Shown here: positions 26,010-40,240 of the stretch, one piece after another
Numbering within the stretch: position 1 is the first letter of the stretch
How the letters are laid out: the number at the start of each line of letters is the position of its first letter
Source of the DNA: Desulfovibrio intestinalis
Lineage (GTDB): Bacteria; Desulfobacterota; Desulfovibrionia; Desulfovibrionales; Desulfovibrionaceae
Assembly: GCF_014202345.1 (NCBI RefSeq)
Contig: NZ_JACHGO010000001.1
Coordinates: forward strand, 434,001 to 498,000
Direction: 5' to 3'
Length of the DNA stretch: 64,000 nt
Made by a program: the position numbers and the translations under genes
Notes under the pieces: model-generated
The model's input: the letters and a program-made list of their open reading frames with translations, nothing else
Databases searched by the model: none
Told to the model about the DNA's origin: nothing

Positions 26010-27446
26010 ATGCAAGACAAATGGGCTGAAATTTCTGTAAATCTCAAAAAAATGCTTAAATCCGGACTTTTCAAAGTCTGGATTGCTCCCTTACACGCTA
26101 CCGTGGATACCTTCGGGTTGCGCCTTGTTGCGCCCAATGCCTATGTAGCAAGCAGGCTGGAAAGCATGATGTTGACGACCTTGCAAGAGGCGGCAGCTCC
26201 CGTATTGGGGCTCGAACCTGCGCAGGTAAAAGTGCACATTGAAGCAGCCGATCAGGACGCTCAGGTATCCACTGCTGTGGAGCATAAGAGCGCAGGGCAG
26301 AAACCCGAGGTTGAGCTTGCTCCTTCAGAAGCTTCTTCCGAACCTGTTACGGTGGCTGCAAGCTCTGTTTTGCAGCAGGCATCTCTTCCTCTTCCGGCTG
26401 CCGCTGTGTACCGCAGTTCGCAGAACTGGCGATTTTCTTTTGCCGACTTTGTTGTGGGGCCCACCAATAATATGGCAGTGGCCGCCGCGCAGGATGTTAG
26501 CCGTAAATATGGCTGCGTGCGCACCCTGTTTGTAAACTCTGCATCAGGCCTTGGAAAAACGCATCTGGCGCAGGCCGTGGGCCGTGCAATCAATGAAGAA
26601 GGCGGCAATGCGCGCGTGGGTTACCTAACTGCCGAAGAATTTGCTTCGCGCTTTGTTACCGCTCTTCGTGCGCAAGATATTGAAGGCTTCAAAGCCCGTT
26701 TCCGTGAGTTGGACGTGCTGCTGATGGAAGACGTGCATTTTTTTCAGGGTAAGGAAAAAATGCAGGATATGGCCCTGGCTGTGGTTAAAAATCTGCAGGC
26801 CAAGGGCGGTCGTGCCATCTTCACCTCGTCCTTTTCTCCTCGCGAACTGCAGAAGGTGGACAGCCAGCTTGTATCGCACTTCTGCTCCGGAATTTTGACG
26901 GACATGGGCCGCCCCACAAAGGATATGCGCTGTGACATCCTTGGGCAGAAGGCCAGAAGCTTTCAGGTACTTTTGCCCGATTCCGTCTGTGAATTGCTTG
27001 CCAGCCGCCTGAGCGGCGATGTGCGGCAAATGGAGTCTTGCCTTAACAGTCTTATTTTCAAGGCGCGCTTGCTCAACTGTGGCCTGAATCTTGATCTGGC
27101 CATGGAAGTGCTGAGCCAGTATGCAGATGTTGCTTGTGGCCCGGACTTTTCAACCATTCTGCGTCTTGTATGCGAAAGCTACGGCCTCAACGAACGCCAA
27201 TTGGCTTCGAAATCCCGCCGCAAGGAATGCGTTACTGGCCGCAATACCGCTTTTTATCTGGCTCGCAAACACACGGAAATGACTCTTGAAGAAATAGGCG
27301 AGAAATTCAATCGCCGTCATTCCACTGTCATCAAGGGCATCACTTCTCTGGAACGTGAATTGTCCAAAGAGTCTACCGAAGGACGGCGTATTGCCCGCGC
27401 TGTAACGTTGATTGAGCGAAATGCAGGCCTCGGCGCACGCGTCTAA
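26010..27446 (+). CDS. dnaA: DnaA-family replication initiator, divergent paralogue
   Basis: A 478-residue protein with the full DnaA layout: domain I (1-80), a linker rich in Ala/Ser/Glu (to about 145), an AAA+ core with Walker A SASGLGKTHL (Lys183, Thr184) and Walker B LLMEDVHFF (Glu240, Asp241), and a C-terminal helix-turn-helix (about 390-478). Changes from the consensus are ED for DD in Walker B and FNRRHSTV in place of FGGRDHTTV, the segment that reads the DnaA box. It stands alone, without dnaN, recF or gyrB. Some Desulfovibrio genomes are recorded with two dnaA genes; this is probably the non-origin copy. AAGG precedes the ATG. A strong terminator follows. Confidence 0.85.
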   Translation: MQDKWAEISVNLKKMLKSGLFKVWIAPLHATVDTFGLRLVAPNAYVASRLESMMLTTLQEAAAPVLGLEPAQVKVHIEAADQDAQVSTAVEHKSAGQKPEVELAPSEASSEPVTVAASSVLQQASLPLPAAAVYRSSQNWRFSFADFVVGPTNNMAVAAAQDVSRKYGCVRTLFVNSASGLGKTHLAQAVGRAINEEGGNARVGYLTAEEFASRFVTALRAQDIEGFKARFRELDVLLMEDVHFFQGKEKMQDMALAVVKNLQAKGGRAIFTSSFSPRELQKVDSQLVSHFCSGILTDMGRPTKDMRCDILGQKARSFQVLLPDSVCELLASRLSGDVRQMESCLNSLIFKARLLNCGLNLDLAMEVLSQYADVACGPDFSTILRLVCESYGLNERQLASKSRRKECVTGRNTAFYLARKHTEMTLEEIGEKFNRRHSTVIKGITSLERELSKESTEGRRIARAVTLIERNAGLGARV

Positions 27447-27898: not shown

Positions 27899-28423
27899 TC
27901 AGTGCAGCAGGGCATCCAGAGCCGAGGCTGACAGATGGCGCGGTTCGCTACGGCGTACAGGTTCCACGCCCCAGGTGCGCAAAAGATCCAGTGTCATAGC
28001 TTCACCTTTGTCCATGCACAGGGCTACAGCCGGAGAAAGAGACGCGCCAAGCGTCATGGCTGCGGGTTGAACGCCAATGAGCGCGCAGTGTTCGGGCATG
28101 TTGCCGCGCAAGGTCGCAAGGCCAAGCACCTCGGAAAAGCTGTTCTGGTGAGGTCCAATTTTCTGGGCTGTGAGGTAGGCTGGCACTTGGTCACGCAACA
28201 CCATTTCCCCCGGTTCAAGACCAAAATCCACAGCATCCAGCACAAGTAGCTTATCTGCGCGTTCTACATGCGTCAGCAGGGTTTGCCCCTGTGTACCGCC
28301 ATCCACAATTTCCACATGTTCGGGGAAGTCCCAGCGCGAATAGATATTTTGGGCCAGCCTTACGCCGTAGCCTTCGTCACCGTAGAGAATATTGCCCAAG
28401 CCGATGATGATTACCGATTCCAT
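27899..28423 (-). CDS. hyaD: [NiFe] hydrogenase maturation protease
   Basis: A 174-residue protease of the HyaD/HupD family, which removes the C-terminal tail of the large subunit after nickel insertion. Nickel-sensing acidic and His residues lie in GLGNILYGDEGYGVR, LVLDAVDFGLEPG and HQNSFSEVL, as in E. coli HyaD, to which it is closely similar along its length. Last gene of the hyaABCD operon, 90 nt after hyaC with a hairpin in the gap. No hyaE, hyaF or hyp genes are in the window. Confidence 0.93.
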   Translation of the reverse strand: MESVIIIGLGNILYGDEGYGVRLAQNIYSRWDFPEHVEIVDGGTQGQTLLTHVERADKLLVLDAVDFGLEPGEMVLRDQVPAYLTAQKIGPHQNSFSEVLGLATLRGNMPEHCALIGVQPAAMTLGASLSPAVALCMDKGEAMTLDLLRTWGVEPVRRSEPRHLSASALDALLH

Positions 28424-28513: not shown

Positions 28514-29218
28514 TTAACTCTTACGCCGTTCCCTGTAACCGCTGAACATGGCGGATACAAGAGTGGTCTTGCCCATGATTTCTTCACGGATGACCATGTA
28601 TATGTGTACTGTCACAAAGGTAACAAGCAGCAGCATGCCAAGGCGGTGCCAGCTGCGCAATTCTTGATCGTTGCCGCCTACCCAGTACGCGAAGTCCAGT
28701 ACAAAGAGGAAGGGTTTGAAGAATGCCTGATGGCTGCTTTCAGCATACATGCCAAGGCCTGTAAGCATGATGATAAGCATGAAGACCATGCCCACAGCCA
28801 TCCCGGCCTGCGCCAGGGGGTTGTGCCCCACATACGCGCGCGGTTCCTTATCCAGAAAAAGGTACCAGCGTATGTCATGCCACAGGTCGTTCCACCATGT
28901 TTTGCTCCAGACTGGCAAAATGATCAGCTCACGCGAATAACGGTTGCCGAAGATGCCGTACAGGTAGCGAAACACTGTGGATATGATGAGAACAAAACCT
29001 GCGATGAAGTGCGCCATGCGCGTATAGCCCATATAGAAGGTATCGTAGGCCGAAGTTCCTGATACAGAAAGCCAGGGTTTGCCTATGATGTAGCCTGTAA
29101 TAATGAGCACGCACACGCAAATAACCATGACCCAGTGCCAGATGCGTATGGGCAGTTGGAATACGTAGACGCTCTTGCCCAAAGGCATTTCAGGCAGAGT
29201 TTCTTTTATATCGCTCAT
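28514..29218 (-). CDS. hyaC: Ni/Fe-hydrogenase b-type cytochrome subunit
   Basis: A 234-residue membrane protein (E. coli HyaC has 235) with four to five helices. Conserved His ligands for two b haems lie in RIWHWVMVICVCVLIITGY, RMAHFIAGFVLI, SWHRLGMLLLVTFVTVHIY. It takes electrons from the distal cluster of HyaA at the periplasmic face to the quinone pool. Co-transcribed with hyaA and hyaB (53-nt gap). Confidence 0.93.
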   Translation of the reverse strand: MSDIKETLPEMPLGKSVYVFQLPIRIWHWVMVICVCVLIITGYIIGKPWLSVSGTSAYDTFYMGYTRMAHFIAGFVLIISTVFRYLYGIFGNRYSRELIILPVWSKTWWNDLWHDIRWYLFLDKEPRAYVGHNPLAQAGMAVGMVFMLIIMLTGLGMYAESSHQAFFKPFLFVLDFAYWVGGNDQELRSWHRLGMLLLVTFVTVHIYMVIREEIMGKTTLVSAMFSGYRERRKS

Positions 29219-29271: not shown

Positions 29272-31086
29272 CTACATGCCCCGATCCATGCGCACAGTGA
29301 GCAGATCCTTGCCGTCAGGCCCAATAATGTGGGTAGAGCAGGCCAGGCAGGGGTCAAAGCTGTGCAGTGTACGCAGGATTTCCAGTGGTTGCTCTGGAAT
29401 GTCCATATGCGTGTTCATAAGTGAGGCTTCATAGGCGCTCAACTGACCATCAGGGCTGCGGGGCGCGCCGTTCCAGGTGGTGGGCACCACGCACTGATAG
29501 TTTTCGATCTTGCGGTCCTTGATCTTGATCCAGTGGCCCAAAGCGCCACGGGGAGCTTCGGTAAAGCCAACGCCACGCAGTTCGGTTGTGGGCCAGGTTT
29601 CAGGCTTCCACTTTGTGGTGTTGGCCGTTGCGCGCACGCCGTTTTTGAGGTTGGTGATAAGGCGGTCATAGAAGTAGCGCATTTTTTCCGCAGACCACGC
29701 CAGTTCCAGTGAACGGGCTGCAATGCGGCCCAAGGTGGACTGAAGGACGGTGACAGGCACGCCGCCAGCGCGGCCCAGAAAATCATCAACCAGATCCGTT
29801 ATTTCGCTATTCTTGCGGGCGTAGCCAATAAGCATACGGGCCAGAGGGCCAACTTCCATCTGATGACCGCGCCACAGCGGTGTTTTGAGCCAGGAATAAC
29901 GGTCCCGTTCATCCACCTGCTTGAGGGCAGTGGGTGTGCCCTTGATATTGGGGCCAGGATTGTAATGCGGTTCCGTAATGCCTTCCCAGGGGTGCAGACC
30001 AATTTTCCCGGCAGGGTAGGACTTGTACCATGAGTGGTTGACCGTTTCCTGAATTTCTTCAGGATCGGTGAGGCTTACGGGCAGCACTTCGTTGAAGTTG
30101 CCGTTAATGATGGCGCCGGGGGGCAGGAGCAGGCTTTTATCGGTGTAGTCGTTGGCAATGTCGGGAATACCGCCGTACGCCAAAACCGAAAGCTTGGACA
30201 ACCCGCCGCCGATGTTGAGCCAGTCGCCATAGAAACTGGCAAGCGCCAGCGTGTCGGGAATAACTACTTGCTGGGCAAAGGTGCGGCAGCGTTCAATGAC
30301 CTGAAGGATGAAGTCAAGGCGTTCCTGGTTGATGACGTCCGCCGCGCCCACACCGTCAATGTTGAGCGAGCAGGGCACCCCGCCCACCAACCAGTTGGGG
30401 TGGGGGTTCTTGCCGCCAAAGATGGTGTGGATGTGCACCACGTCTTTCTGGAAGTCCAGAGCTTCAATATAGTGGGCGACCACCATAAGGTTGGCTTCGG
30501 GCGGTAGCTTGTAGGCCGGGTGGCCCCAGTAGCCGTTGGTGAAGATGCCGAGCTGCCCGGAATTGATGAGCTTGAGCAGCTTGTCCTTGACGGACTGGAA
30601 GTAGCCCGGCGAGGAGTTGGGCCAGGGCGACAGCTTTTGCGCCAGTTCCGAAGTTGCCTTGGGGTCGGCTGTGGAAGCCGAAACCACGTCCACCCAGTCC
30701 AGACCGGTAAGGTGGTACAAATGTACCAGATGGTCATGGTACATGAGGCAGAGCTGCATGAGGTTGCGGATGATGTTGGCATTGTCAGGAATATCAATGC
30801 CAAGCGCATTTTCAACGGCCTGCACAGAAGACAGGGCGTGCGTGCCCGTGCATACGCCGCAGATCCGTTCGGTGAAGGCCCAGGCGTCGCGGGGGTCACG
30901 GCCTTTGAGGATGATTTCTATACCGCGAAAAATAGTGCCGCAGGAAACGGCATTGGTAATGACGTTGTCGTCATTGATGTTCACTTCGCAGCGCAGGTGC
31001 CCTTCAATGCGGGTCACAGGGTCCACGACGAGGCGGCGGCCAGCGTCAACAACGTTATATCCTTGCGTCTTGTATTCGTAGGACAT
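29272..31086 (-). CDS. hyaB: [NiFe] hydrogenase large subunit, HyaB type
   Basis: The 604-residue catalytic subunit. Nickel ligands are Cys76/Cys79 in RICGVC (same numbers as E. coli HyaB) and Cys580/Cys583 in DPCLACSTH. Eighteen residues after His586 form the tail that HyaD removes. Similarity to E. coli HyaB runs end to end ([24 protein letters not shown]-like segment, [16 protein letters not shown]), placing it in the Hyd-1-like group rather than with the usual Desulfovibrio HynA enzymes. It is exported with HyaA on the latter's Tat signal. It oxidises H2 at the periplasmic face. Gap to hyaA is 11 nt. Confidence 0.95.
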
Positions 31087-31097
31087 GGGTGCGTTCC

Positions 31098-32204
31098 TTA
31101 GCTCTTGCTGGTGTCTTCGTTAACTTCCGGGGCTTTCTTCTTGTCGCAGCAGGCATGACGTACCATGCTGGCCGCGCCATGAATGGCCACACCCGCTGCC
31201 ACACCGGCCACAGCGGCAACACCAACGGTTTCAGCCGTGGAGTTGGTGCCCATATGCGGAATGGTAGTGATGCGGTCATAGAATGACTGCTGATCCCAGA
31301 AGTTCTGTTCCGAGCAGCCAATGCAGCCGTGCCCGGACTGGATGGGGAAGGATACGCCGTTGTTCCAGCGGGTGGAGGGGCAGGCATTGTATGTGGTCGG
31401 GCCTTTGCAACCCATTTTGTACAGACACAGGCCTGAGCGTGCGCCCTCGTCGTCCCACGATTCCACAAACTGGCCCGCATCGAAGTGGGCGCGGCGGTAG
31501 CACTGGTCGTGCACGCGCACGCCGTAAAACATTTCTGGGCGTCCCTGCGAATCAAGGCTCGGCAGACGATCATAGGTAATGATGTACGTCAGAATAGCAC
31601 TCATGACTTCCGGGATAGCCGGGCAGCCGGGAACCTTGATCTGAGGCTTGTTGGGGAAAAGCTTGTGCAGAGGGGTGGCTGCCGTGGGGTTGGGCGAAGC
31701 AGCCTGTACACAGCCCCAGGATGCGCATGTGCCCCAGGCTACCACAGCCTTGGCATGCTCCACGCCCATCTTGAGCTTTTCATAAAAAGGCTTGCCGCCA
31801 TCAATGCAGTACATGCCCTGTTCGTTCATGGGCACGTTGCCTTCAAGAGCCAGAATGTACTGGCCCTTGTATTTCTCGATGGCCTGCTCGTAAGTTTCAT
31901 TGGCCTGATGGCCAGCCGCAGCCATGATGGTATCCTGGTAGTCCAGAGCAATCATGGAAAGAATAATGTCCGCCGCAAGGGGATGGGCGGTTCTCAGGAA
32001 GGATTCGGTGCAGCAGGAACAGGAAAGTCCGTTGATCCAGAGCACCGGCAGACGAGGTTTGGTAGAAAGGGCCTGAGCAATGGCCAAGTCCGCGCCGGGG
32101 CCAAGCCCCATAGCAACGGCAGTAAGCGCGCAGAACTTCATGAAGTCCCGGCGGCTGACGCCCCTGTTGCGCAAAACCTCAGCGGTTGTTTCAAGATGTG
32201 CCAT
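31098..32204 (-). CDS. hyaA: [NiFe] hydrogenase small subunit with oxygen-tolerance cysteines
   Basis: A 368-residue subunit with a Tat signal (SRRDFMK, residues 17-23), three Fe-S clusters and a C-terminal membrane helix (about 325-345). Six cysteines surround the proximal cluster: Cys62, 64, 65, 160, 165, 194. With a constant offset of 45 these equal Cys17, 19, 20, 115, 120 and 149 of E. coli HyaA, including the two supernumerary residues (19 and 120) that make the [4Fe-3S] cluster of oxygen-tolerant membrane-bound hydrogenases. Standard enzymes have Gly there. Medial and distal cluster motifs ([29 protein letters not shown]) are complete. First gene of hyaABCD. Confidence 0.95.
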
Positions 32205-32540: not shown

Positions 32541-34145
32541 TTAGTCGTCAGCGCCTTCTTCACCTTCAAACTTGATGAAGCCTGGGTTCACGTTGGTCAT
32601 GGCGTTAACAATCAGTTCCACCAGGCCGCCGTAGGCGAAGTTGTTCTTGGTGTACAGGTCGTTGTGTTCAAGGATTTCACGAATCTGGCCCTTGCAGTTG
32701 GAGCAGGGGGCGCAGATGTACTTGCGGGTTTCGGGTCCCAGGCAATCCTTGAAAGCTTCGCTGATCTGCCACATCTTTTTACGGCCAGAGATGTTGCCGC
32801 GCCATTGTTCGATATTGTTGCGCGTCATGATGGCAAAGCCTGAGCCACCGCCGCAGCAGTAGTTGTCCACTCCGTTATGCGGCATTTCGCGGAACTGGGG
32901 CGCGATCTTACGGATAATTTCGCGTTGGGGTTCGACGATGCCCATGAGGCGAACCACGTTGCAGGGGTCGTGCAGCGTCACAGGGAAATCGTTGCGTGAG
33001 GGGTCCAGCTTCAGGCGGCCACTCATAACGATGTCACGCAGGGTGACGTAGCAGCTTTCGCGCGGCACCTGATACTCAAAGGGAATCACGCGGTCGGCGA
33101 TGACCGTAAGGGCTTTGTGGGCATGGCCGCACTCGCCGATGACGATCTTTTTCACGCCCAGTTCCTTGGCGGCCATCATGTGCTGCAGGGCGATACGGGC
33201 GGTCTGGGCGTCGTCATAAAACACGCCGTAGTTCACGCCGTCATAGGCCAGAGCCTTGCTGGAAAGCGTCCACGACAGGCCGGCTTCCTGAAAGATCAGA
33301 GAGAAAGAAGCGATGTTTTCAGGCCAGGCCATGATTTCACCGGCATTGTGCAGCAGCATGATGTCTGCGCCCTGCACGTCAAAGGGCGTATGGATGCCCA
33401 CGCCGGTGATTTCCGTATAGTCCTCATCAATAAACTCTACGTTTTCCTTCACCACTTCGGGCGTCATGCCCGTAGAAGAACCAGCCTTCATGTGGTTCAT
33501 GGTGCCGCGTTCGTGCAGTTCGCGGGGGTAGATGCCCATTTCCTGGCTGAAAAGCTTGCGGATTTCGCGGGCCAGAAGGCCGTTGTCCACGCCAATGGGG
33601 CAGGTCTGGGCGCAACGGCGGCAAAGGTTGCAGCGGTAGGCCAGTTCACCCAGGCGGGCCACTGTCTTCCAGTTCAGTTGCATGTCGCCGTAACGCCATT
33701 TGGCCAAGGGTTCTTTCTTTACATACTGCTTGTAAATGCGGCGAAAGATTTCAGAGCGAAAGTTGGGGCGATACATTTCGTTTTCGCCTGACATTTCATA
33801 GAGATGGCAGGCTTCAGAACAGGAGTTGCACTGGGCGCAATAGTCCATGCTGGTTTCAAGCATGGGCAGGAAGGTCCAGTTGTTTTCCTTGGTGAACAGC
33901 TTGCGCATACCGTCGAGGAACTTGTTGACCAGCTCTTCCTCTTCTTCACGGTTCTTGGGCTTGGGGATGTTCAGCACGCTGACTTCATCAAGAATACAGG
34001 CCGTGTTTTCCTTCTGCTCGTCGGTGAAGGGCTTCCAGGGCATGGTATGCATGTCCACGGCCAGATCGGGAATTTCCTTCAGGTCAATGCTGACCATCTG
34101 CCCGTCGACGGTAGAGACGTCTGTCAAACGGAGGTTGTCTTTCAT
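32541..34145 (-). CDS. CCG-domain iron-sulfur protein (HdrD/DsrK/TmcB-like)
   Basis: A 534-residue cytoplasmic protein. Two ferredoxin-type [4Fe-4S] motifs (CAQCNSCSEACH near 104; CNLCRRCAQTCP near 173) are followed by a GECGHAH segment and a complete CCG motif (DPCNVV...YCCGGGSG...CAPCSNC), which in HdrB/HdrD binds a noncubane cluster that acts on thiols or disulfides. It is paired (11-nt gap) with a NarI-like cytochrome b, the arrangement of DsrMK, HmcEF, TmcCB and OhcCB. The order (b, then CCG) and length resemble DsrMK, but the cytochrome b looks different from classical DsrM and dsrJOP are absent. Role: passing electrons between quinone and a cytoplasmic thiol carrier. Confidence 0.85.
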   Translation of the reverse strand: MKDNLRLTDVSTVDGQMVSIDLKEIPDLAVDMHTMPWKPFTDEQKENTACILDEVSVLNIPKPKNREEEEELVNKFLDGMRKLFTKENNWTFLPMLETSMDYCAQCNSCSEACHLYEMSGENEMYRPNFRSEIFRRIYKQYVKKEPLAKWRYGDMQLNWKTVARLGELAYRCNLCRRCAQTCPIGVDNGLLAREIRKLFSQEMGIYPRELHERGTMNHMKAGSSTGMTPEVVKENVEFIDEDYTEITGVGIHTPFDVQGADIMLLHNAGEIMAWPENIASFSLIFQEAGLSWTLSSKALAYDGVNYGVFYDDAQTARIALQHMMAAKELGVKKIVIGECGHAHKALTVIADRVIPFEYQVPRESCYVTLRDIVMSGRLKLDPSRNDFPVTLHDPCNVVRLMGIVEPQREIIRKIAPQFREMPHNGVDNYCCGGGSGFAIMTRNNIEQWRGNISGRKKMWQISEAFKDCLGPETRKYICAPCSNCKGQIREILEHNDLYTKNNFAYGGLVELIVNAMTNVNPGFIKFEGEEGADD

Positions 34146-34156
34146 GTCTGAACTCC

Positions 34157-35092
34157 CTAGTCTTCTTTCTTTTCTGTGGGGTTGGTCGTGGCAACGTCTA
34201 CCCAGCTCTTGGGGGTGCCATCACCGGCGATATGCTTGGCCGACCAAGTCACATTGAACTTGAGGGCCTCAAGAATCTTTGCTTTGTTCTTGTCGCTGCT
34301 GCTGGTGGGCTCGTCGCCCCAGCGGATGTCATGATAGGTGAAGTACTTCATGAACACATGGCCCATGTGCGTCATGGGAATCCAGATGAGCAGGAAGAAA
34401 CCGATCAACAGGTGCAGGCTGAACAGAACGCTGGTTTGAGGAGCGAAGTTGAAGGTGATCAGATTGTAAATAAAGGTGCGGGCCAGTTCGAAGTAAGAAG
34501 GAGAGAAAGCCCACGCGGCCAGACCAAGCAGGCCGAAAACTATGAATATGACCAGATTGAAATAATGCTCGGGCGTGCTGTAGCGGCGCAGGCCTTCGTC
34601 ATTGCGGCGGCGTTCAATCAGGCCGATGCCGCCAATGATGATGCACAGCGTGCCGACCAGCACCACGGCGTTGATAATATTGCCCACAAAGATCATGAAG
34701 CCGCCCTGCGGGTTCAGACCAAAGAGCTGGGCAAAGACTGCGCAAAGCACGATGATAGTGCCGCCCATGAGCATGTACATGCCCACATGGAAGGGGTAGG
34801 AGCGCACCCACAGCTTGAGGTTATGCTCGAACGTGGCGTGCAAAAACAGTACTTCAGTAAGCAGCGCCTTGATGTCGCCCCAATGGGAAATGTGGCGGGG
34901 CTTGGTCCACCAGTCTTTTTCTTCCATGAAGCTGCCGCCGTAAACAGTCTTACTGCCCTCGTGCGGCACAGGATAAAGTTCCCAGCGCACATGCAACGGG
35001 CTGGATGCCATGTAAGATCTGATCTTCAAGTAGGCCATGCAAATGAAGCCGGCTACCGCCAAATAGCCCAAGATGTAAAACAAAGTGGTCAT
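34157..35092 (-). CDS. NarI-like cytochrome b membrane subunit
   Basis: A 311-residue membrane protein with an N-terminal helix (5-25), a polar stretch (about 27-85) and four more helices to about 260. Candidate haem-b His ligands are in LFLHATFEHN, YPFHVGMYM, LHLLIGFFLL and THMGHVFMKYF. The C-terminal 50 residues are cytoplasmic. It is the first gene of a two-gene unit with the CCG iron-sulfur protein and should pass electrons between menaquinone and that partner. Confidence 0.85.
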   Translation of the reverse strand: MTTLFYILGYLAVAGFICMAYLKIRSYMASSPLHVRWELYPVPHEGSKTVYGGSFMEEKDWWTKPRHISHWGDIKALLTEVLFLHATFEHNLKLWVRSYPFHVGMYMLMGGTIIVLCAVFAQLFGLNPQGGFMIFVGNIINAVVLVGTLCIIIGGIGLIERRRNDEGLRRYSTPEHYFNLVIFIVFGLLGLAAWAFSPSYFELARTFIYNLITFNFAPQTSVLFSLHLLIGFFLLIWIPMTHMGHVFMKYFTYHDIRWGDEPTSSSDKNKAKILEALKFNVTWSAKHIAGDGTPKSWVDVATTNPTEKKED

Positions 35093-35894: not shown

Positions 35895-36311
35895 TCAGCG
35901 TAAAAGACGGTCGTCCTGCATAAGGTCACGCAAGGTAATGGATTCAAACACTCCATCCAGAGTTGATTGAAGGCTTTCCCACGCTTTGCGTACCTCACAG
36001 GCATCAAACCGGGAGCAGTTTCCTGGCTTTTCCAGGCAGCCGCTTAGCTCAATGCCTCCTTCCATCAGCCGGACAATACAGCCAAAGGTGAGATCCTCGG
36101 GTTTGCGCACGAGCACATGCCCCCCCTTGGCGCCACGCACGCTGCCAGTAATGCCAGCCAGACGAAGCTGGCGCAGGATCTGTTCAATAAACTGCGAGCT
36201 GATGCCAGTTTTGTTTGCAAGCAGGCTTGATGATATAGGCTGTTCAAGCCCATTTTTTGCCAAATAAAGCAAGATACGGGCTGCATAGCGTGTTTTTGCT
36301 GAAAGTTTCAT
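35895..36311 (-). CDS. Rrf2-family regulator with Fe-S cysteines
   Basis: A 138-residue winged-helix protein (MKLSAKTRYAARILLYLA, SVRGAKGGHVLVRKPEDL). Cys92, Cys99 and Cys105 form C-x6-C-x5-C, almost exactly the IscR/NsrR/RsrR cluster site, so it should bind [2Fe-2S] or [4Fe-4S] and respond to redox state, NO or iron. I start at 36311, where GGGGGA lies 6 nt upstream; the ATG at 36332 has none. It is divergent from a second Rrf2 gene lacking these cysteines. Target genes probably include the neighbouring redox modules (inference). Confidence 0.9.
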   Translation of the reverse strand: MKLSAKTRYAARILLYLAKNGLEQPISSSLLANKTGISSQFIEQILRQLRLAGITGSVRGAKGGHVLVRKPEDLTFGCIVRLMEGGIELSGCLEKPGNCSRFDACEVRKAWESLQSTLDGVFESITLRDLMQDDRLLR

Positions 36312-36653
36312 TACGAATCCCCCGAGGAGCATATGTAAAAGGGGAAATCAAAAGGATCCGATCGTCTCATCGGGCTGAGACATAAATTCGGTATCCGAAG
36401 CATAGCTGAATTCTGTAAATAGTAACATCATTGTAGCAATTAAGATATTACTTTTTTGTCTTATCTTACTGATTGCGAAAGTATTCACACTCTCAATTTG
36501 CGGTTGTGCGAAATTTATGAGTCATGAAAACCGGCTTCGCAGAGTCGCTTGACGCCCAAAGTCGCTTGAGATAAGAATCATGAGTAAAGCAGTCTAAATT
36601 AGACCCATCCAGTATCGTCAACTTTATTGCCTCCAGCAAAATAAGGAATAAAT
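36312..36653. other. divergent Rrf2-Rrf2 intergenic region
   Basis: About 340 bp between two divergent Rrf2-type regulator genes. It holds a short inverted repeat TTCGG-TAT-CCGAA near 36388-36400 and a longer candidate operator (listed separately). Both genes should be controlled from here. Confidence 0.5.
36441..36468. promoter_or_regulatory. candidate Rrf2 operator
   Basis: Inverted repeat TAAGATA (36441-36447) and TATCTTA (36462-36468) with a 14-nt T-rich spacer, in the gap between the two divergent regulator genes. AT-rich dyads of about 25-28 bp are typical of Rrf2 operators. Confidence 0.4.
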
Positions 36654-37199
36654 ATGCGTATTTCCACAATGGCCTGTCATGCGCTGCATTTGCTATTGTG
36701 CCTTTCTGAACAAGATCAGGCCATGCCTGCATCTGCTTCAGAGCTTGCGGCATGTACAGGCATCTCTGAAAAATTTGTGCAAAAGATCATGCGTTTGTTG
36801 CAGGCTGAAGGCATTGTCAAAAGCGTGCGTGGTATCGCTGGGGGGCATATGCTTGCCCGTAACCCTGACGCCGTAACCCTTGCGGACATAATTAACGCTG
36901 TTGAAGGGGGAATAACCCTGCCTGGCGTTAACAGCGAAGCCCCTGCTGGCAAAGCTGCATTTGATGTTTGGGACAAGGCCGCCATGACCTTACAAAACTC
37001 CCTGGACGCAGTGACCCTTAGTTCTGTTCGCCAAAGTGCGGGATTTTCCCAGCGCCCTGGCACGCGCCGCAAGGCAGATCATGCAACCTCAAGACGCCCA
37101 GAATCCGAATCCGGAGGCTCCAATGCAAAAGCATATTCTCTTGGTAGACAGCGATGCCGCAAGCCTAAGCAGGATGTCGCAGGTCTTACGTCAGTCTAA
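36654..37199 (+). CDS. Rrf2-family regulator without Fe-S cysteines
   Basis: A 181-residue protein with the Rrf2 winged helix (MRISTMACHALHLLLCL, SVRGIAGGHMLARNPDA). In the region where IscR carries its three cluster cysteines (EGGITLPGVNSEAPAGKAAF) there is none, so it should be cluster-free, like CymR. The 40 C-terminal residues are basic, Ser/Arg-rich and overlap the next gene for 77 nt, which suggests the stop may have drifted. The pair with the receiver gene recalls rrf2/rrf1 beside hmc in D. vulgaris. Confidence 0.85.
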   Translation: MRISTMACHALHLLLCLSEQDQAMPASASELAACTGISEKFVQKIMRLLQAEGIVKSVRGIAGGHMLARNPDAVTLADIINAVEGGITLPGVNSEAPAGKAAFDVWDKAAMTLQNSLDAVTLSSVRQSAGFSQRPGTRRKADHATSRRPESESGGSNAKAYSLGRQRCRKPKQDVAGLTSV

Positions 37200-37479
37200 C
37201 TATCAGGTAAGTGTGGCCTGTAGCTGCGATGAAAGCCTGAATATGGTCAATGACCGCAAGCCTGATTGCATAATCTTTGATGTTGATCTTGAAGGCACTT
37301 CAGGAACAATCATGTACAGCCGCTTGCGCAGGAACTCGCAAACCCGTGGCATTCCGGCGATTGTCTGCACCAATGTGGGCCCCAGGCCGGTATGCTTTGG
37401 AACCGGCATACCCGTTTTGAGCAAAAATTGTTCAGGTGATGCCCTATTGGGTGCCGTTTCGGCAGCTTTTGCCTGCTAG
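37123..37479 (+). CDS. Rrf1-like single-domain response regulator
   Basis: A 118-residue receiver domain (HILLVDSDAAS, Asp53 in IIFDVDLEGTSG, Lys101 in VLSKNC). It has no output domain. GGAGG lies 6 nt before the chosen ATG; an upstream in-frame ATG at 37081 lacks a site. In D. vulgaris rrf1 encodes such a receiver downstream of hmcF; here it lies convergent to the HmcF-like gene. It overlaps the Rrf2 gene by 77 nt in another frame. Confidence 0.85.
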   Translation: MQKHILLVDSDAASLSRMSQVLRQSNYQVSVACSCDESLNMVNDRKPDCIIFDVDLEGTSGTIMYSRLRRNSQTRGIPAIVCTNVGPRPVCFGTGIPVLSKNCSGDALLGAVSAAFAC

Positions 37480-37677: not shown

Positions 37678-39066
37678 CTACTCCAGCTCATTATGGCGAA
37701 TGTGTGGAGGCACGATTATCATTTCAGCAAGCAGGGGTTTTAGGAAGGACCACTTGATATTGTGTTCCTCGTACACTTCCATCATGTCGCGGATGGCGTC
37801 CCAGCAGTTGTGGCAAGGAGTGACGACCAGCTCAGCCCCTGTGGCCTTGATCTGATCCAGCTTGTTTTTGAGGCCGACATTTCGTTCCTTGCGGTACACG
37901 CCAATGCCGTTGAGTCCTCCACCACCGCCACAGCAGAAGTTATGATCCCCCTTGGGATCCATTTCTCTAAAATCTTCAGCTATGTAGCTCATGATTTCCC
38001 GCGTAGCGCTGCCGAGTCCGTCATTGCGGACATAGTTGCAGGAATCCTGCAAGGTACACGGCACCTTGATTTTTTTGGCGGGATCAATCTTCAGCTTGCC
38101 CGTGCGCAGCATTTCGGCCACCCACTCAACATAGTGCATGAAGCGTACTGGCGCGTCTCCGCTTTCGCGTCCTGCCCAATACGGCCCTTCGACAACCGTG
38201 GCACGATGGGCATGTCCACATTCCGTTCCCACAACTACCTTGGGCTTGATGCGGTCTATGGCTGAGTAAATGCGTTTGACATTCTGCGCGCAACCTTCCC
38301 AGTCGCCAGCAAACATCGTCAATGAGGTATTTTCCCACCCTTCGCGCGGCACGGTCCAGTCGGTATCTGTGACGTGAAAAAGAATTGCGGCCAGCGCGAT
38401 GTCTTCTGGATAGTGCTTAACCTCACGGGCATTGAGGATATACATGACATCCGCATGCTCTTTTTCCACAGGAATTTCGAGGTCAGGCCATTCTTCCTGC
38501 TGTTCTTCCACCATCCATTCGCAGGTTTCCAACCAATCTTCTTCGGTTACGTCCATCTGCGCGCCATACACACGGTGCATGCCAGATCCGATCTTCATTT
38601 CCCACGGAATAAAGCCATGCTTGAAGAGGATGCCGCGCAGGTAGCTGAACATGACGCCAGTGTCTATGCCGTGCGGGCAGTACACAGCGCAGCGGTTGCA
38701 ACAGGTGCACTTGCCCCAGGCCGCATCCATGCACTTGATCATGAACTCTGCATCAACCTTGCCCTTGCGGCGTATGAGTTCGCCCAGGGTCGCCTGAATT
38801 TTGTAGGATGGAATCTGAGTGGGATCATTGTTGTTTGTTCTGTAAAAAAAGCAGCTGTCTGCACACATGGCGCAATGTGCGCAGACATTGAGCCATGTGC
38901 GGGTGCGAGATTTACTGGTCTGCTCCAAGTCGCGGGCGAGGGCAGCCTGATCAACTTTCATTTCCTTCATCTGGCTGTAGTATTGCGCCCCTACCTTATC
39001 TTTCAGCAGTTCAAGAATGCCTTCTTTGGTGGTGATTGGGGTAGGGGTGCAAAGCAATTCGGACAT
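37678..39066 (-). CDS. HmcF/TmcB-like CCG-domain iron-sulfur protein
   Basis: A 462-residue cytoplasmic protein, the same size as HmcF of D. vulgaris (about 461). Two [4Fe-4S] motifs ([11 protein letters not shown] near 62; [14 protein letters not shown] near 120) are followed by TECGHAH and a CCG motif (DSCNYVRN...FCCGGGGGL...CHNCWD). It receives or supplies electrons via the adjacent HmcE-like cytochrome b and is expected to act on a cytoplasmic disulfide or another redox partner. Last gene of a three-gene operon with a periplasmic cytochrome. Hmc or Tmc subfamily cannot be settled without a tree. Confidence 0.88.
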
Positions 39067-39109
39067 AATCCGCTCCTTTCAGGCGAGAATAATGATACAG
39101 TTTCCCGAT

Positions 39110-39790
39110 TTACCAGGGGAATGCGCCACCGCGTGTGGCTCCGCCTCTTTTGATGGCGAAGTCCATACCGATCTGAGCGCGCGACATGAAGAAGAGAACT
39201 ATGTGTGAAAGCTTGGTAAAGGGTGCCAGAATAAGGAAAAGTTCGCCGCTCAGCACATGCAGAATCATCCAGCTTTGATAGGCGGAGGTGTCCAGCCGGG
39301 CTATAAGCCCCGTGGCAAAGGGCAAAAATGTCAAAACCAGTATGAGCCAGTCTGATCCGCTGTTCAGCTGTCTAAGGGCAGGTGATACCATGCGGCGTAT
39401 GCCCAGCAAAACAATGGCCGCAAGGCTCAGTACAGAGAGGATATCAGCCAGTGTTCCCGGCAGCGAGGGCAGGGTTATCCCTACATAGCGCTCAAGCAGC
39501 ACTGTATGTCCAAGCAAAAAGAGAGGCACAAGAACAGCGCCAAAATGCAAAAGGAAAAAGAGAACAGCTGCAACAGGTTGCGTTCGCCAGCCGTCAGTGC
39601 CGCCGGGGATCAGCCATTTGAAGATTGACGCCAGCGCGCCAGGCACAGAACGGTCTGTATGATATCGGTAGGCCACACGTTCGAGCCGCCAGTCCAGGCC
39701 GCGCACATACCAGAAAATACGGGCCAGCATACCCACCACAAAAATAACAAGAGAAATGACAAACAAGGGTCCGGTAATGAAATCAAGCAT
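39110..39790 (-). CDS. HmcE/TmcC-like cytochrome b membrane subunit
   Basis: A 226-residue membrane protein, the same size as HmcE, with five helices. Candidate haem His residues lie in FFLLHFGAVLVPLFLLGHTVLL, ILHVLSGELFL and TKLSHIVLF (each segment is within the NarI-like pattern). The polar ending KRGGATRGGAFPW resembles HmcE/TmcC as I recall them. It links the upstream periplasmic cytochrome to the downstream CCG protein. Gaps of about 45 nt on both sides indicate one transcript. Confidence 0.9.
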   Translation of the reverse strand: MLDFITGPLFVISLVIFVVGMLARIFWYVRGLDWRLERVAYRYHTDRSVPGALASIFKWLIPGGTDGWRTQPVAAVLFFLLHFGAVLVPLFLLGHTVLLERYVGITLPSLPGTLADILSVLSLAAIVLLGIRRMVSPALRQLNSGSDWLILVLTFLPFATGLIARLDTSAYQSWMILHVLSGELFLILAPFTKLSHIVLFFMSRAQIGMDFAIKRGGATRGGAFPW

Positions 39791-39835
39791 CTGATCGTCT
39801 CCTACGTTCTTTCTGTCTGATACAAGAGCTACCGA

Positions 39836-40240
39836 CTATTTTTTGGCGGCATGCTCAGATGCAATGCGTTCGCTATGGCAGACCCGGCAGTCAACAAGGC
39901 GGGGGCCCTTGGACAGTTTTACATGGCATTCGGTACAGGTAGCGTGCAGGTAATCCATCTGTTTTCGCGGGGCAATGTTTCGAACGTTCATGAGTGACTC
40001 TGCAAGACCCTCATCTGTCATGTCATGGCAGGTTGTACAGTCCTGCCCCTTGCCATCAAGGTAGGCAATGTGTTGATCGTGAGTGAAGAAGACCGGCGGC
40101 ATCTTTTTGGCACTGAAAGGCGGGTAGGTGAAGGGGATGCGCTCTTCACCCAGGGCCTCGCCCGAAGACAGCACCAGGCCTAGGGTCAAAACCAACAAGC
40201 AGGGGAGAATGATTCTGAATCTGACGTTTTTTTCCTGCAT
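39836..40240 (-). CDS. periplasmic three-haem c3/c7-type cytochrome
   Basis: A 134-residue protein with a Sec signal peptide (hydrophobic residues 9-27). Three CxxCH sites are present (CTTCH, CTECH, CRVCH) and three further His (in FTHDQHIAY and DYLHATC) could supply sixth ligands. The spacing is that of cytochrome c3 with haem II missing, which is the c7 plan; TmcA is described as tetrahaem and DsrJ as trihaem. It starts the operon with the HmcE- and HmcF-like genes, so it probably connects periplasmic hydrogenase or formate electrons to the membrane complex. Confidence 0.85.
   Translation of the reverse strand: MQEKNVRFRIILPCLLVLTLGLVLSSGEALGEERIPFTYPPFSAKKMPPVFFTHDQHIAYLDGKGQDCTTCHDMTDEGLAESLMNVRNIAPRKQMDYLHATCTECHVKLSKGPRLVDCRVCHSERIASEHAAKK

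Follow-up and report, generated by a model that had tools for sequence, protein, structure and literature searches.

A group 1d-type [NiFe] hydrogenase unit, hyaABCD, with six proximal-cluster cysteines and no detected HyaE or HyaF in Desulfovibrio intestinalis and its relatives

The hyaABCD genes of Desulfovibrio intestinalis, located in the 64,000 nt stretch of DNA analysed here (the window), encode what is, by sequence, a group 1d [NiFe] hydrogenase. The small subunit (HyaA) carries six proximal-cluster cysteines and groups with enzymes of this class in a phylogenetic tree, a HyaC-type subunit is encoded alongside, and the large subunit (HyaB) has Glu73 and His229. Very probably, this is a membrane-bound, H2-uptake enzyme that would pass electrons to quinone by way of HyaC and would tolerate O2; the unit was probably gained once from Pseudomonadota. 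The features of the region are collected in Table 1.

Table 1. Features of the hya region and its upstream neighbours (window positions).
Feature	Position	Strand	Basis or content
hyaA (small subunit)	31098..32204	minus	Tat signal, six proximal-cluster cysteines, C-terminal hydrophobic stretch
Ser61 codon (E. coli Hyd-1 Glu16)	32022..32024	minus	alignment; position by arithmetic
Cys62 codon (E. coli Cys17)	32019..32021	minus	alignment; position by arithmetic
Cys64 codon (E. coli Cys19, supernumerary)	32013..32015	minus	alignment, script check; position by arithmetic
Cys65 codon (E. coli Cys20)	32010..32012	minus	alignment; position by arithmetic
Cys160 codon (E. coli Cys115)	31725..31727	minus	alignment; position by arithmetic
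Cys165 codon (E. coli Cys120, supernumerary)	31710..31712	minus	alignment, script check; position by arithmetic
Cys194 codon (E. coli Cys149)	31623..31625	minus	alignment; position by arithmetic
hyaB (large subunit)	29272..31086	minus	both CxxC pairs; Glu28, Glu73, Asp118, His229, Arg509 equivalents
hyaC (b-type cytochrome anchor)	28514..29218	minus	TIGR02125 above cut-off; five invariant histidines
hyaD (maturation endopeptidase)	27899..28423	minus	Pfam HycI, NCBIfam TIGR00072 above cut-off
Terminator-like stem (9 pairs) and T run, gap between DsrK-like gene and hyaA	32473..32494	minus	consensus match only
DsrMK-like pair, neighbour	32541..35092	minus	NarI-like cytochrome b 34157-35092; DsrK-like iron-sulfur protein 32541-34145

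The hyaA open reading frame starts with ATG and encodes 368 aa, with a twin-arginine signal domain recognised by profile TIGR01409. The top matches in a phmmer search of PDB were the Hydrogenase-1 small chains 6fpi and 3uqy (E ~2e-155, ~520 bits), which we take to be those of E. coli, and residues 47–350 of HyaA aligned without gaps to residues 2–305 of the PDB chain, an offset of 45. The same offset was obtained with HyaA of E. coli K-12 (NC_000913), where 230 of 367 aligned positions were identical (62.7%) and Cys was present in all six columns. These alignments confirm the proposal of the earlier note that Cys62, 64, 65, 160, 165 and 194 are equivalent to the proximal-cluster cysteines of E. 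coli, and neither of the supernumerary positions (Cys64 and Cys165) is occupied by Gly. In an alignment of small subunits (129 rows, some repeating one protein), all six cysteines were found in 23 of 23 Desulfovibrionaceae relatives of HyaA (E ≤ 1e-100), while the second small subunit of the same genome (L002) and E. coli HybO showed C-G-C-C-G-C at the six positions. The conservation of all six in the 23 relatives, together with the identity to E. coli HyaA, excludes chance as their source. A further arrangement, Cys-Gly-Asp/Asn-Cys-Gly-Cys, was seen in small subunits from Desulfobacterota and Nitrospirota (L112–L127, L129, L131, L025–L028 and L030); those of L025–L028 and L030 belong to hyaABCD-like operons (five with flanks compared).

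The four genes lie head to tail on the same strand in the order hyaA-B-C-D, as had been claimed, with gaps of 11, 53 and 90 bp. Their products are 62.7, 64.2, 49.8 and 48.3% identical to E. coli HyaA–D, respectively, which bears out the likeness to Hyd-1 described for all four. HyaC scored 192.8 bits against TIGR02125 (cut-off 121.5), and its five histidines were invariant in all 35 aligned sequences, 19 from Desulfovibrionaceae and 16 from elsewhere. The terminator-like stem upstream of hyaA suggests that hyaABCD is a transcription unit of its own; consensus matching over 9 kb gave 21 terminator-like sites, a count that includes overlapping ones, where 10.1 would be expected. Sigma-70-like sites were at chance level (7 found, 6.2 expected), and no conserved regulatory motif is claimed upstream, where the sequence aligns well among near relatives only. 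The next gene past hyaD is convergent and specifies a DnaA-family protein that has the full set of three DnaA domains (26010–27446). The four genes form a complete-looking catalytic unit, predicted to be group 1d, whose maturation set is reduced; as a kind they are ordinary.

The same operon was sought in other Desulfovibrio, as the earlier note had advised, and carriers were found in 20 genomes of the window's genus. Across the family, hya occurs in 23 of 288 Desulfovibrionaceae genomes (E ≤ 1e-100), in 18 of the 205 good ones and in 3 of 44 genera; later searches within the genus covered 79 genomes. The HyaA proteins of the 23 carriers have identities to that of the window down to 63%, and that of a D. 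desulfuricans isolate other than L4 (L005) is 89% identical. The order A-B-C-D was complete in 18 of 20 relatives' loci, the other two reaching contig ends. The site varies between genomes: in 7 of the 20, hya lies close to the DsrMK-like pair, and in five other loci (L095, L097–L100) it is near ORF clusters; those of L098 include members matching the FtsK and chemotaxis-receptor families. Ca. Bilophila faecipullorum, one of the carriers, is described, in the passage available to us, as coming from chicken faeces (PMC10095559). A sulfate-reducing host, as first supposed, agrees with the presence of dsrA in the genome of D. intestinalis. The gene was detected in 19 of the 23 carriers (17 over the cut-off, 2 partial) and in none of 14 control genomes, so that the search had no positive control beyond the carriers themselves. 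There was no dsrA match in two of the 18 near-complete carriers (G012, G016) or in the incomplete G037 and G081; given the two near-complete ones, the hya unit is not strictly tied to sulfate reduction. Two dsrA matches over the cut-off were present in the D. intestinalis genome (G000:C2:214358 and G000:C9:23408), and G036 and G057 also have two.

Among the second-sphere residues of the large subunit, Glu73 is, according to passages from two papers, a conserved feature of O2-tolerant enzymes, its place being taken almost always by Gln in sensitive ones (PMC3940037, PMC4747160). The residue is Glu in the window; the 23 carriers have Glu (20) or Gln (3), Gln predominates in 4C enzymes (20/21), and other 6C enzymes have Glu (10/17) or Gly (7/17). 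Since Gln and Gly both occur at this position among 6C enzymes, Glu73 is no strict mark of them. Glu28, Asp118 and His229 were kept in all 23 carriers, and Arg509 in all 21 with letters there, but 4C enzymes keep all four to the same degree, and none of them separates the two types. According to an excerpted report, E. coli Hyd-1 does not strictly require even its large-subunit Glu28 (PMC10430524).

Several residues of the small subunit, some of them beside the cluster, were altered in the carriers. Residue 61, equivalent to E. coli Glu16 (next to Cys17), is Ser in 22 carriers and Thr in one, whereas Glu was present at this position in 17/17 other 6C and 19/21 4C enzymes compared. His13 was changed in all 23 carriers and Glu57 in 22. 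Glu16 and Thr18 of the small subunit have a role in a proton path, with Glu16 in proton exit; the excerpts of papers on proton transfer that were consulted do not deal with this residue in [NiFe] hydrogenases. The altered positions were picked post hoc: a scan across every column left 15 in the small subunit and 20 in the large one that passed a single filter. When the comparison was widened to 80 other small subunits, Glu16 was lacking in 24 (19 of these 24 have Asp/Asn at the Cys20 position), so within the 6C enzymes its loss marks the Desulfovibrionaceae branch but overall it is not unique, and the case for Glu16 as a universal residue is weakened.

In a small-subunit tree of 72 sequences, the Desulfovibrionaceae 6C rows formed their own clade (support 100/98) with HyaA of the window inside it. 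E. coli HyaA was the sister of this clade (100/99), and C. necator HoxK and rhizobial enzymes joined the two next (100/99). Here, E. coli HyaA and C. necator HoxK are taken to be group 1d, Desulfovibrio HynA (and HynAB as a whole) group 1b, and E. coli HybO group 1c. All 38 6C rows fell on one side of a branch with weak support (90/52). HynA of the same genome, which is of the O2-sensitive Desulfovibrio type, was placed far away, among Desulfovibrio 4C enzymes, and E. coli HybO also lay apart from HyaA of the window. Trees of HyaC and HyaD made by a quick method (36 and 34 rows) likewise had E. coli as sister (98 and 94). The description of the enzyme as Hyd-1-like and group 1d-like is upheld by this grouping with Hyd-1 and HoxK, and a group 1b Desulfovibrio hydrogenase is ruled out by the six cysteines and the separation from HynA.

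The genes probably result from one old transfer from a pseudomonadotal donor to an ancestor within Desulfovibrionaceae, and are now patchy. Gain by transfer had been put forward with a 'perhaps', and a horizontal origin is the likelier reading, with HyaA nested beside E. coli in Pseudomonadota enzymes. Apart from that of E. coli, the trees of HyaA, HyaC and HyaD contain no 6C sequence from Gammaproteobacteria, so they do not fix the donor or the direction of transfer. A recent transfer was rejected on composition: the GC contents of hyaA, B, C and D (0.578, 0.572, 0.506 and 0.564) and their GC3 values (0.68, 0.71, 0.65 and 0.59) lie mostly within the ranges of 13 other window genes (0.528–0.611 and 0.59–0.74), only the GC of hyaC being below, and a transfer would consequently be old. 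Vertical inheritance from a Desulfobacterota ancestor, with loss in most lines and no transfer, is quite unlikely. It would accord with the patchy distribution in the family and with a 6C enzyme in another genome of the phylum (L111), but not with the nested position of HyaA. Of 395 genomes of the phylum, 51 matched (E ≤ 1e-95), including 9 from the genus. Among the remaining 42, that same L111 gave the best match, with 50% identity, and it grouped with Verrucomicrobiota (94/89). Of the 42 genomes matching outside the genus, 21 were read as outside-family loci (L111–L131), and in 20 of these the enzyme was not 6C.

The earlier description of the system as complete did not hold for its maturation genes. 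In E. coli, hyaD is followed by hyaE, hyaF and then appCB, and C. necator has HoxO and one further expression/formation protein among other maturation genes. HyaF/HupH (PF04809) was matched in none of the 23 carrier genomes, and among 14 control genomes in E. coli alone. HyaE (PF07449) gave no match over the cut-off in the 23 carriers, with one weak match (9.3e-4) in G042, far from hya; this profile is less specific, matching 7 of the 14 control genomes, E. coli included (3 over the cut-off). Five of the 23 carrier genomes are less than 90% complete, and the 18 good ones give the same picture. HypD was present in all 23. With HyaE and HyaF not found, assembly must go another way, and the carriers offer a natural set of enzymes, predicted to be of the [4Fe-3S] type, with which the purpose of those maturation proteins could be probed.

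In the mechanism that we propose, HyaA and HyaB would be exported by the Tat system and H2 split by HyaB at its Ni-Fe site in the periplasm. Electrons would pass through the six-cysteine proximal cluster, presumed to be [4Fe-3S], to HyaC, which would reduce the (mena)quinone pool and by-pass the cytochrome c3 route of HynAB. When O2 reached the active site, the cluster would supply an extra electron and O2 would be reduced to water, allowing H2 oxidation to continue under trace O2. The quinol might be consumed by cytochrome bd or by anaerobic reductases. The enzyme may conceivably serve in the gut mucosa, as the earlier note supposed. The cydA gene is present in the D. intestinalis genome; as a link between hya and bd oxidase this is uninformative, cydA being found in 74 of 79 genomes of the genus.

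A second functional reading, which we regard as doubtful, is that the six cysteines were kept by descent in an anaerobic, high-potential H2:menaquinone enzyme for which O2 tolerance is reduced or irrelevant. The failure to detect HyaF, or HyaE over the cut-off, in the 23 genomes would fit this, as would the replacement of Glu16 and His13 in every carrier and the three carriers with Gln73; in addition, an excerpted study of sulfate reducers states that an O2-tolerant hydrogenase need not reflect the O2 tolerance of its host (PMC9448743). Against it, both supernumerary cysteines persist in 23/23 proteins as far as 63% identity to the window, suggesting that they are still under selection, and Glu73 is kept in 20 carriers. 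More tentatively than the O2-tolerant uptake enzyme preferred here, the Desulfovibrionaceae enzymes might be a distinct, long-diverged branch of Hyd-1, with a six-cysteine cluster made without HyaE and HyaF, changed residues beside it, and a differing proton exit, assembly and perhaps use. If so, they would differ from all studied group 1d enzymes, and they may serve for anaerobic H2 oxidation at high potential instead of defence against O2.

The upstream DsrMK-like pair is probably not part of the hya unit. That the pair belongs to the hydrogenase, in the manner of isp1-isp2 (Isp-type, group 1e), and sends electrons to a cytoplasmic sulfite pathway, is highly improbable. It is of the right types (NarI-like and DsrK-like), on the same strand as hyaA at a distance of 336 bp, and near hya in the 7 of 20 other Desulfovibrionaceae loci mentioned above, but a terminator-like stem intervenes and HyaC already provides an anchor. 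The DsrK-like gene also occurs in 64 of 79 genomes of the genus, against 20 for hya, and none of 12 stretches (up to 20 kb) around the pair elsewhere, from 8 genomes without hya and 4 with hya at another place, contained hya. In Isp-type hydrogenases, isp1-isp2 sit between the small and large subunit genes; by gene order this type was rejected, hyaA and hyaB being 11 bp apart with no genes between.

Among the closest known systems, E. coli hydrogenase-1 (hyaABCDEF) is alike in A-B-C-D order, six cysteines, Glu73 and His229, and is sister in the trees. It differs in having hyaE and hyaF, neither of which was detected in Desulfovibrionaceae carriers, in a bd oxidase gene beyond hya where the window has the convergent DnaA-family gene, and in keeping small-subunit Glu16 and His13, both replaced here. 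HoxKGZ of C. necator shares the six cysteines and the b-type cytochrome anchor (61.7, 59.7 and 39.6% identity for A, B and C), but its operon is long and brings along accessory genes, HoxO and others for maturation, which were not seen beside hya here. HynAB of the same genome (L002) is also a [NiFe] enzyme; its small subunit is 46% identical to HyaA, has four cysteines and is distant in the tree, and no HyaC-like gene was found in 3.9 kb around it.

A group 1d type is already in print for the genus Desulfovibrio. A 2021 report, seen in part, attributes group 1b and oxygen-tolerant group 1d hydrogenases to D. desulfuricans L4 (PMC8140134). That strain shares the genus name and is likened here by description, the passage being without sequence analysis; its two group 1 enzymes are paralleled by two [NiFe] large subunits in the D. 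intestinalis genome. In the portions available of other papers, Desulfovibrionaceae are tabulated with 1b and 1d (PMC10095559), acidobacterial sulfate reducers hold most of the 1d and 3d enzymes (PMC9448743), and gut Bilophila and Desulfovibrio are assigned 1a with no mention of 1d (PMC12911397). Added here are the failure to detect HyaE and HyaF, the change of Glu16 to Ser/Thr, and the location of hya at differing sites; openly accessible titles and abstract beginnings held no statement that HyaE and HyaF are missing in Desulfovibrionaceae. One branch of the anaerobic sulfate reducers and their relatives retains a signature of O2 tolerance that belongs to aerobic and facultative bacteria, and selection on tolerance can be asked about in organisms living mostly without oxygen. 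The interest is moderate, and lies in the host, the patchiness and the missing maturation helpers.

Other genes upstream of hya deserve a brief description. The DsrMK-like pair is, in several loci, near rpoC, an Rrf2 regulator and HmcEF-like genes, and in one locus (L091 9317-12138, genome G093) ~1.2 kb of foreign sequence interrupts the DsrK-like gene. In the window, the interval between the DsrMK-like and HmcEF-like genes (35895–37479) holds a receiver-domain protein and a pair of Rrf2-family regulators in divergent orientation. The HmcEF-like genes (37678–40240) match HmcF (878 bits, cut-off 750) and HmcE (296 bits, cut-off 275) and are accompanied by a short cytochrome c weakly like HmcA/TmcA, possibly representing a small Hmc-like complex without the 16-haem subunit.
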